Shown piece after piece: positions 39,059 through 59,391 of a stretch of 64,000 nucleotides of DNA. The stretch spans positions 62,001 through 126,000 of the forward strand of contig PLBO01000135.1 in assembly GCA_003134555.1 (NCBI GenBank), given 5' to 3'. Under the pieces are notes generated by a model. The model searched no databases, had not been told where the DNA came from, and saw nothing but the letters and a program-made list of their open reading frames with translations. The translations under genes were made by a program, and so were the position numbers. The first letter of the stretch is position 1, and each line of letters opens with the position of its first letter. Source of the stretch: Actinomycetota bacterium (GTDB lineage: Bacteria > Actinomycetota > Acidimicrobiia > IMCC26256 > PALSA-610).

Positions 39059-39682
39059 TCAACCAATCGTGAAGGGGGCGCGCATGCCTTTGCCGTAGTG
39101 CTGGGCGAGGTTGCACACGATGTCGTAGTTGCCGGCCGTCATGTTCTTGATCGTGAAGGTGCGGGTGACGCCCGGTTTGAGGTTGGGGTCGCCGGTTTCG
39201 CCGATGTTGGTGTCTTCGCCGACTTTGTTGGCGCCGCTGGTGACGGGAGCCGGTGGGTCGCCGCTGTTGTTGATGGGCAGTTTGTCGAAGGCGACGTTGG
39301 TCTTGAGGACGATTGCTTCGTGGTCGATGGTGCCGGTGTTCTTCACCACGAAGGTGACGTCTCCGGCCGGGGCGGTGGCGGGTGACACGACGAGGGTCAT
39401 GGGGCCACCGAGACCTTTGGTGTCACTCAACGTCACATTCACCGTCGTGACCTTGACCTTCGTGCTGGACGACGAGGTCGGGATCTTGACGCCGTCTTCC
39501 AACGAGTTCGCGCCGGTCGCGGTCGAACTGGAGGTACTCGCGCACCCGGCGACGCCGCCGAGAATCCCGATCAACGCGATACCGGTGAAGATCCGTCGTC
39601 GGCGAGACGTGATGGGGCGCCTTCTTCTTGCCCCTCGACGCGAGCGCGAGTGGCGGTTCCGGGTGCCGACTAACCGGGTCAC
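39059..39682 (-). CDS. Cupredoxin-like lipoprotein (first gene of respiratory operon)
   Basis: A 207-residue protein, probable GTG start at 39682. Basic residues then a hydrophobic stretch and lipobox (IALIGILGGVAGC) suggest a lipoprotein, followed by a Ser/Thr-rich linker. The C-terminal domain is a type 1 copper fold: an early His in GTIDHEAIVLKTN, and the ligands Cys-x4-His-x4-Met in YDIVCNLAQHYGKGM. It is a likely electron acceptor of the bc complex at the outer face of the membrane. Confidence 0.85.
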   Translation of the reverse strand: MTRLVGTRNRHSRSRRGARRRRPITSRRRRIFTGIALIGILGGVAGCASTSSSTATGANSLEDGVKIPTSSSSTKVKVTTVNVTLSDTKGLGGPMTLVVSPATAPAGDVTFVVKNTGTIDHEAIVLKTNVAFDKLPINNSGDPPAPVTSGANKVGEDTNIGETGDPNLKPGVTRTFTIKNMTAGNYDIVCNLAQHYGKGMRAPFTIG

Positions 39683-54165: not shown

Positions 54166-54217
54166 ATTGACAACTGTCGATACATCGACTCTTGCAAATG
54201 TATCGACGTTTGTCAAT
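54166..54217. promoter_or_regulatory. ArsR operator: 20-bp inverted repeat
   Basis: The arms 54166-54185 (ATTGACAACTGTCGATACAT) and 54198-54217 are reverse complements except for one or two bases, separated by 12 bases. The site lies between the divergent arsI and arsR genes. The TTGACA within it could also be a -35 element. Binding by ArsR, released by arsenite, is expected from the family. Confidence 0.8.
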
Positions 54218-54236
54218 AGGTCGAGGAGCGGTTTTC

Positions 54237-54578
54237 GTGGCAGCCAAGCGAACAGCATTGATCGAGCTCGACGACGGCGTGTGCTGCGCGCCGCTGTTGG
54301 TCGCACCATTGGCCGACGACGAGGCCACGGAGCTGGCCCTCGTGTTCGCCGCGCTCGGCGACCCGGTCCGTCTCCGCCTGCTCAGTTTGGTCGCCGCCGG
54401 GGGAGAGGTGTGCTCCTGCGACCTCGAAGCGCCATTGGGCAAGTCACAACCGACGATCAGTCACCACACCAAGGTCCTCGCCGACGCCGGTCTTCTCACG
54501 GGTGAGAAGCGAGGCCGGTGGATGATGTGGCGAATCGTTCCCGATCGCCTCGAGGCTCTGCGCGCCGCCCTCGCCTGA
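54237..54578 (+). CDS. arsR: ArsR-family arsenic-responsive repressor
   Basis: A 113-residue winged-helix repressor from GTG 54237, with GAGGAG upstream; the longer frame from 54192 would read through the operator. LVFAALGDPVRLRLLSLVAA starts the helices, GGEVCSCDLEAPLGKSQPTI carries the two-Cys As(III) pair (CSC) in the DNA-recognition region, and SHHTKVLADAGLLTGEKRGR is the wing. An additional CC pair (GVCCAP) at the N-terminus may add a third ligand. It should repress arsI and the aqp-arsC genes. Confidence 0.88.
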   Translation: MAAKRTALIELDDGVCCAPLLVAPLADDEATELALVFAALGDPVRLRLLSLVAAGGEVCSCDLEAPLGKSQPTISHHTKVLADAGLLTGEKRGRWMMWRIVPDRLEALRAALA

Positions 54579-54585
54579 CCTGCTG

Positions 54586-55296
54586 ATGAACCGTGATCTC
54601 GCTCGAAAGGCGACGGCGGAAGCGGTCGGCACCGCGCTGCTCGTCGCGATCGTCGTCGGCTCGGGCATCTACGCCCAACGCCTCTCACCGGACGACATCG
54701 GGCTGCAGCTGCTGGAGAACTCGATCGCCACCGGCGCCGGTCTGGTCGCACTGATCCTGGCGTTCGGATCCGTGTCGGGCGCGCACTTCAATCCCGTCGT
54801 GAGCATCGCCGACCGAGTGCTCGGCGGGCTTACGACCAAAGAGCTCGCCGTCTACGTGCCTGCGCAAGTGCTCGGCGCGTGTGTCGGAGCGATCGTCGCC
54901 AACCTGATGTTCGAGCTCGACGCGGTCACGTTGTCGACCCACACTCGCAGCTCCGGCGGCTTGTGGTTGGGCGAGGTGGTCGCGACGTTCGGTCTGTTGA
55001 TGGTCATCCTCGGAGTCGTGCGCTCCGGCCGGGCTTCGACTGCGCCGTTCGCAGTCGGCGGCTACATCGCGGCGGCGTACTGGTTTACGAGCTCGACATC
55101 GTTCGCCAATCCCGCCGTCACTGTCGGTCGCATGCTGAGTGACACCTTCGCCGGGATCAAGCCGTCGTCGGCGCCCGCCTTCGTCGTCGCGCAACTTGCC
55201 GGTGGTGCCCTCGCCGTCGGCCTCGCCCGCTTCTTGTATCCCGATCTACCGGCCGCCGACATGGTCGTGCCGCATGCCCATACCGACGTTGCCTGA
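54586..55296 (+). CDS. MIP-family channel, arsenite-type aquaglyceroporin
   Basis: A 236-residue major intrinsic protein, seven bases after arsR. The two asparagine-proline boxes are SGAHFNPVVSIADR and SFANPAVTVGRMLSD. There are six helices and two half-helices. In actinobacterial and alphaproteobacterial ars operons (AqpS) such channels release arsenite produced by ArsC instead of an ArsB pump. Position between arsR and arsC supports this. Confidence 0.88.
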   Translation: MNRDLARKATAEAVGTALLVAIVVGSGIYAQRLSPDDIGLQLLENSIATGAGLVALILAFGSVSGAHFNPVVSIADRVLGGLTTKELAVYVPAQVLGACVGAIVANLMFELDAVTLSTHTRSSGGLWLGEVVATFGLLMVILGVVRSGRASTAPFAVGGYIAAAYWFTSSTSFANPAVTVGRMLSDTFAGIKPSSAPAFVVAQLAGGALAVGLARFLYPDLPAADMVVPHAHTDVA

Positions 55297-55309
55297 ACGG
55301 AGACTCGCC

Positions 55310-55747
55310 ATGCCCGCCCGCGAAGACCGCAACGTCAGCGACGGTGCACCGACTGTGCTGTTCTTGTGCGTGCACAACGCCGGCCGGTCGCAGATGGCAC
55401 TCGGGTGGTTCAACCATCTCGCCGACGGCAACGCGATCGCCTGGTCGGGCGGGTCCGAACCGGGTACCGAAATCAATCCGTCTGCCATCGCCGCCATGGA
55501 CGAGGTCGGCATCGACATCACCCACGAGTTCCCCAAACCGTGGACCGACGAGATCGTGCGCGCCGCCGACGTCGTCGTCACCATGGGCTGCGGCGACTCC
55601 TGCCCCTTCTTTCCGGGCAAACGCTATGAAGACTGGGAGCTCGAAGACCCCGCCGGCCAGAGCATCGGGGCGGTACGACCCATCCGTGACGAGATCGAAA
55701 AGCGCGTCCGCGACCTGCTCGCGAGTCTCGAAGTCCCGGCGCGCTGA
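55310..55747 (+). CDS. arsC: Arsenate reductase (low-molecular-weight phosphatase type)
   Basis: A 145-residue protein starting at ATG 55310. The P-loop is FLCVHNAGRSQMA, CX5R with the nucleophilic Cys. The second and third redox cysteines lie in TMGCGDSCPFFPGKRYEDWE, as in thioredoxin- or mycothiol-linked reductases. DWELEDPAGQSI is the Asp general acid region. It reduces arsenate to arsenite for the channel encoded just upstream. Confidence 0.92.
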   Translation: MPAREDRNVSDGAPTVLFLCVHNAGRSQMALGWFNHLADGNAIAWSGGSEPGTEINPSAIAAMDEVGIDITHEFPKPWTDEIVRAADVVVTMGCGDSCPFFPGKRYEDWELEDPAGQSIGAVRPIRDEIEKRVRDLLASLEVPAR

Positions 55748-58917: not shown

Positions 58918-59391
58918 ATGTCGACGATGTTGACCGCCGGGGTGACGGCGCCCGAGCTCGACTCGGTCGTAGACCACGATGGCAATCCGGTGCGGCTCGC
59001 GGATCTGCGCGGCGGATGGGTGCTGTTGTGGTGGTACCCGATGGCCGACACTCCCGGCTGAACGATTCAAGGCAAGGGCCTGCGTGATCAGGCCCAAGAG
59101 TTCGAAAGCCTCGGCTGCGAGATCCTCGGCATCTCGTTCGACGCGCCCGAGGCCAACCGAGCGTTCCGCGACAAGTTCGACTTCCCGTTCCGGTTGCTGT
59201 CCGATGTTTCGGAGCAGGTCGGCGTGGCGTACGAGACTCGAGCACCGGGCACCGAGAAGGTGAACTTCGCCAAGCGCTACAGCTACCTGATCGATCCCGA
59301 GGGCATCATCGCCAAGAGCTATGAGGTCGCCGACGTGAATGCGCACGCCGACACCGTTCTGCGCGACCTTCGCGAACTCCAAGCGCGCTAA
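58918..59391 (+). CDS. Peroxiredoxin with in-frame TGA, probable selenoprotein
   Basis: A 157-codon peroxiredoxin of the BCP/PrxQ or AhpE-like type. Starting from ATG 58918, LTAGVTAPELDSVVDHDGNP and LLWWYPMADTPG are followed by TGA at 59059-59061 exactly where the family has the peroxidatic Cys (PGCT), then TIQGKGLRDQAQEFESLGCE and on to the C-terminus without a frame change. A 7-bp hairpin (GGGCCTG/CAGGCCC, loop CGTGAT with G at position 2) starts 14 bases after the TGA, fitting bacterial SECIS rules. The product would be a selenocysteine-dependent peroxidase. Alternative: Cys TGC mutated to TGA. Confidence 0.8.
59076..59095 (+). promoter_or_regulatory. SECIS-like hairpin
   Basis: Stem 59076-59082 pairs with 59089-59095; the six-base loop (59083-59088) is 21 bases after the TGA and has G in its second position. 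Bacterial SECIS elements lie inside the coding region just after the UGA with a small G-containing loop. Predicted by eye, not folded by program. Confidence 0.65.

Follow-up and report, generated by a model that had tools for sequence, protein, structure and literature searches.

Selenocysteine (Sec)-containing peroxiredoxins (Prx; PF00578, TxxU) are a known selenoprotein family (PMC1794560, PMC2398784, PMC5029168, PMC13188914); in the Global Ocean Sampling survey, where they numbered 253 sequences, they were one of the abundant kinds of selenoprotein (PMC2398784), and a 2016 survey counted 91 of them (PMC5029168). The gene described here, which resides in a 64,000-nucleotide stretch of an Actinomycetota genome (hereafter, the window), is a new example of this already known family. 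Compared by description rather than by sequence, its predicted product resembles the Sec-Prx of these surveys in its AhpC/TSA fold, its TxxU motif, a single Sec at the peroxidatic position, and a downstream bSECIS element, and differs from them in that its clade has no canonical resolving Cys and its host is an actinomycete, assigned to Acidimicrobiia from the closest named relatives. PrxU (NF040737) belongs to the same peroxiredoxin superfamily, but its model has 233 positions, against 157 residues for the window protein. The BCP/PrxQ proteins (NF006960; PDB 5ima, 5enu, and 9a4d) share its fold, active-site motif, and similar length; however, the window protein would carry Sec in place of Cys, and it has no Cys at position +5 from the active site. 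AhpE of M. tuberculosis (PDB 4x1u), a 1-Cys enzyme according to PDB titles, has a similar fold and likewise no conserved resolving Cys, but it uses Cys, and the structural model of the window protein matches it less well than the PrxQ proteins.

The gene occupies a single frame of the forward strand at 58918–59391, which gives 157 residues when TGA is read as Sec (U), contains only one TGA, at codon 48 (59059–59061), and ends with TAA (59389–59391). The frame and end are as given in the preliminary description, but its start, the in-frame ATG at 58918, is probably not the one used: most homologues and orthologues align from 'ML' on, which favors the ATG at 58927, nine bases further in, and the likeliest coding sequence would be 58927–59391. 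It had also been claimed that an ordinary gene caller would split or truncate this gene, and the open reading frame (ORF) listing under translation table 11 does so, with the 5′ ORF ending at the TGA and the 3′ rest appearing as an ORF of 65 residues. The Pfam AhpC-TSA match (PF00578; residues 10–133) spans the TGA with 100.1 bits (gathering score, 26), and in phmmer alignments with solved BCP/PrxQ proteins, e.g., 5enu and Xanthomonas PrxQ, the TGA falls on their peroxidatic Cys, which bears out the earlier statement that the TGA sits at the peroxidatic Cys codon with the frame and family residues intact on both sides. This codon lies in a TPGU/CT motif, and the family motif PxxxTxxC/U is present as P41-T45-U48, invariant in 12 orthologues. 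The AlphaFold model, calculated with Cys substituted for Sec, has a pLDDT of 91 and a helix that begins at residue 48; its best structural matches in the PDB are BCP, Xanthomonas PrxQ, and BcpB of M. tuberculosis, with AhpE lower down. No NCBIfam model was reached at its cut-off: the protein scored 102.1 bits against NF006960 (BCP/PrxQ; cut-off, 140 bits) and 48.1 bits against NF040737 (PrxU; cut-off, 270 bits), the latter being the best match among PrxU-named models. Automatic naming by these models would therefore overlook the protein, and with the NF006960 cut-off missed, 'PrxQ-type' refers here to its fold and closest relatives only.

An orthologue was found in 12 of 61 genomes (the source genome and 60 relatives). 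All of these orthologues contain a single TGA, always at this codon, and the nearest relative is 94% identical to the window protein. A wider set consisted of the best 80 homologues found when GTDB 220 was scanned with each species represented by one genome; according to record titles, these come from Acidimicrobiia, other Actinomycetota, Alpha- and Gammaproteobacteria, Gemmatimonadota, Planctomycetota, and SAR324, although the genomes are mostly metagenome-assembled and single taxon labels may be wrong. The alignment with Cys and Sec homologues that had been proposed as a check was favorable: codon 48 is TGA in 78 of these best 80 and TGC in the remaining two (L126 and L128). A phylogenetic tree groups the Sec proteins with both Cys members, apart from the Cys paralogues of the order, at full support. 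Inside the Sec clade lies the Cys protein L126, which is best read as a putative Sec-to-Cys change; L128 is on a long branch, and its placement is unsure.

A hairpin with a folding energy of −14.1 kcal/mol is predicted between +15 and +34 relative to the TGA (59076–59095). It consists of a 5′ arm, GGGCCTG (59076–59082), an apical loop, CGTGAT (CGUGAU in the RNA; 59083–59088), with G at the second position, and a 3′ arm, CAGGCCC (59089–59095). The bSECIS model calls for a stem of 4–16 bp, a loop of 3–9 nt with G in the first two loop positions, and a distance of 16–37 nt from the UGA (PMC13188914); the corresponding values here are a 7-bp stem, a 6-nt loop with G second, and a UGA-to-loop distance of 21 nt. 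The SECIS-like 7-bp stem with a G in its loop was thus correctly described at the outset, but the hairpin alone is not decisive. When the DNA was recoded synonymously with the protein fixed, 10.6% of 20,000 recodings yielded some SECIS-like stem of at least 7 bp, and 2.1% of 4,000 folded equally stably at the hairpin site. These frequencies make a lone hairpin too weak as proof of Sec: taken alone, it is moderately unusual in a GC-rich sequence and suggestive only. An Rfam search of the window found nothing.

The hairpin becomes convincing because it is conserved across homologues. Of the 79 TGA genes (window included), 77 retain a stem of 5 bp or longer with an unchanged distance to the loop, and the retained stems vary in sequence (GGGCCTG/CAGGCCC, GAGCCTG/CAGGCTC, GGGTTC/GAATCC, and GGGGTTC/GAACCCC). 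The loop core CGTGA recurs across the TGA homologues, with one G variant in two relatives, and the two weak hairpins, by the measure used here, belong to L073 and L075. Among 12 relatives, 91.7% of the alignment cells pair, three pairs vary in both partners, and the covariation score was not reached by any of 500 shuffles; given the few changes and the relatedness of the sequences, this covariation counts as support for both arms, not as proof. In the two TGC homologues the hairpin is lost: their stems measure 1 and 3 bp, and CGCGA replaces CGTGA. The Cys paralogues have mostly short stems at this site, with a few longer ones.

These data bear on the reading that translation really ends at the TGA, or that TGC or TGT was missequenced as TGA, so that the gene would be either a pseudogene or a Cys peroxiredoxin that was miscalled. 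The source genome is a draft (4.63 Mb in 154 contigs, 98% complete) and ordinary ORF finding goes no further than the TGA, both of which agree with such a reading; yet the same TGA recurs in homologues of many phyla with the downstream frame intact and a matched hairpin conserved, and we consider it extremely improbable. A sequencing error, in particular, is very unlikely, as TGA occupies this codon in relatives that were assembled independently. Error, pseudogene, and general read-through were rejected on account of the TGA and hairpin common to homologues in many phyla.

The preliminary description had named two findings that would refute it, TGC or TGT at this codon in the reads and a genome lacking the Sec machinery, and neither came up. 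All of the machinery was found: a tRNA-Sec with anticodon TCA (70 bits; gathering score, 47), selA (437 bits) with adjoining selB (291 bits), and selD (404 bits), all above curated cut-offs. A tRNA-Sec above the cut-off was detected in 12 of 12 genomes with the gene versus 26 of 49 without it (Fisher p = 0.002, which is only indicative, the genomes being related and partly incomplete). The UGA might instead be read as another amino acid, such as Trp or Cys by suppression, with no selenium involved, which would account for a full-length product without SelB. However, the genome has the full Sec machinery, the SECIS-like hairpin is tied to the UGA and lost where the codon is TGC, and the position is that of the catalytic Cys; such suppression has, in our judgment, hardly any likelihood. 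The selenocysteine peroxiredoxin originally proposed is upheld by the conserved TGA and hairpin and by the Sec machinery of the genome.

Apart from this set, a second selA-selB pair is located at L060, on a contig of 4300 bases (C20), and is 55% and 45% identical to the pair on contig C84. Contig C20 has a G+C content of 63%, compared with 66–69%, and contains undetermined bases; this pair is either a contaminant or a second set. Another genome of the same class (G058) has two tRNA-Sec matches above the cut-off (C4:40768 and C2:139699).

Other selenoproteins of the source genome were sought by a few family searches. No in-frame stop interrupts selD (L021, contig C136), whose N-terminal motif has Cys, and Cys also stands in the best FdhA-like gene (L053, contig C126) at what we take, from E. 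coli FdhF, to be the expected Sec site. Within the searches made, neither SelD nor FdhA seems to carry Sec in this genome; in an early survey, one or the other was a selenoprotein in every selenoproteome (PMC1794560). The search for GrdB gave no match, but its control was likewise silent, which deprives this result of any weight as evidence of absence. The AhpC-TSA family search revealed three additional genes of the Trx fold with an in-frame TGA, on contigs C105 (L152:5282-5761, plus strand), C138 (L154:4812-5369, minus strand), and C118 (L153:4061-5161, minus strand). Two are SelL-related (UPFC and ULHC), with one scoring 120.8 bits (cut-off, 120) and the other, weaker, 75 bits, and the third is a WAxxUGC protein with 542 bits to a curated selenoprotein model (cut-off, 300). 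Further selenoproteins are therefore likely in this genome, as judged from these family matches. By eye, both SelL-related genes share a short CGCGC-AGTT-GCGCG hairpin downstream of the TGA.

A resolving Cys at +5 is known from one branch of PrxQ and is not universal. The Cys paralogues of the same order carry it (TPGCTTQSC), whereas it is absent from the window protein and, among the TGA homologues, present only in L113. No other alignment column is mostly Cys. With neither a canonical resolving Cys nor another conserved Cys, the protein would therefore be a one-Sec peroxidase recycled by an external thiol. In two Planctomycetota members, L113 and L128, a Cys is found at +5 from the active-site Sec or Cys, respectively, unlike in the rest of the clade.

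It is also conceivable that the protein is a selenoprotein of another kind, either a thiol:disulfide oxidoreductase or a peroxidase in which a lineage-specific internal Cys, C67, rather than an external thiol, serves as the resolving residue. C67 occurs in the window protein and in several close relatives, and the related TGA genes of the same genome are of the UxxC or UGC type. On the other hand, only 20 of 81 homologues have Cys at this position, the peroxiredoxin motif is kept with no Cys near U, and the fold neighbors are the BCP/PrxQ and AhpE peroxidases; we regard this alternative as unlikely, though less so than the two above.

Taken together, the intact frame, the conservation of the UGA and of the hairpin, the Sec machinery, and a confident fold prediction support a BCP/PrxQ-type selenoprotein peroxiredoxin, and it is very probable, as far as sequence can tell, that the gene encodes such a protein, with UGA read as Sec. 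We infer Sec insertion itself, the peroxidase activity, and the reductant. SelB with Sec-tRNA(Sec) would bind the hairpin that closely follows the in-frame UGA, so that Sec is inserted at the peroxidatic position; the selenolate would then reduce peroxide and become a selenenic acid, which is probably recycled by an external thiol, either thioredoxin or a low-molecular-weight thiol such as mycothiol. The search with a mycoredoxin model gave no match and that for MshC gave matches only below the cut-off; mycothiol-based recycling may still apply.

No neighbor genes are conserved across phyla; common neighbors occur only within close groups. Elsewhere in the window, at 54192–55747, translations inspected by eye point to a probable arsenic resistance cluster, in which an ArsR-like regulator is followed by an aquaporin-like channel and a low-molecular-weight ArsC-like protein. 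A codon-signal screen of the window for other Sec genes, which was non-exhaustive and missed the gene under study, gave three candidates. Judged by eye, a cupredoxin-like gene seems simply to end at the one at 39061 (minus strand), with the next frame coming after it, and no recognizable protein is encoded at the remaining two.

Whether these genes form a distinct and so far unnamed clade of single-Sec peroxiredoxins is, in our estimate, evenly balanced. Such a clade would have no resolving Cys, Sec as the rule and Cys as the exception (78 of the best 80), members in several phyla, a stand-alone gene, and one SECIS design with the loop core CGUGA, and its genes would likely be split by gene callers. 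Since ORF finding under table 11 cuts the window gene in two, annotation of genomes from uncultured bacteria can miss genes of this kind. What Sec contributes to a peroxiredoxin lacking a resolving Cys could be tested in this clade, in which the two hairpin-less Cys members provide a natural Sec/Cys comparison.
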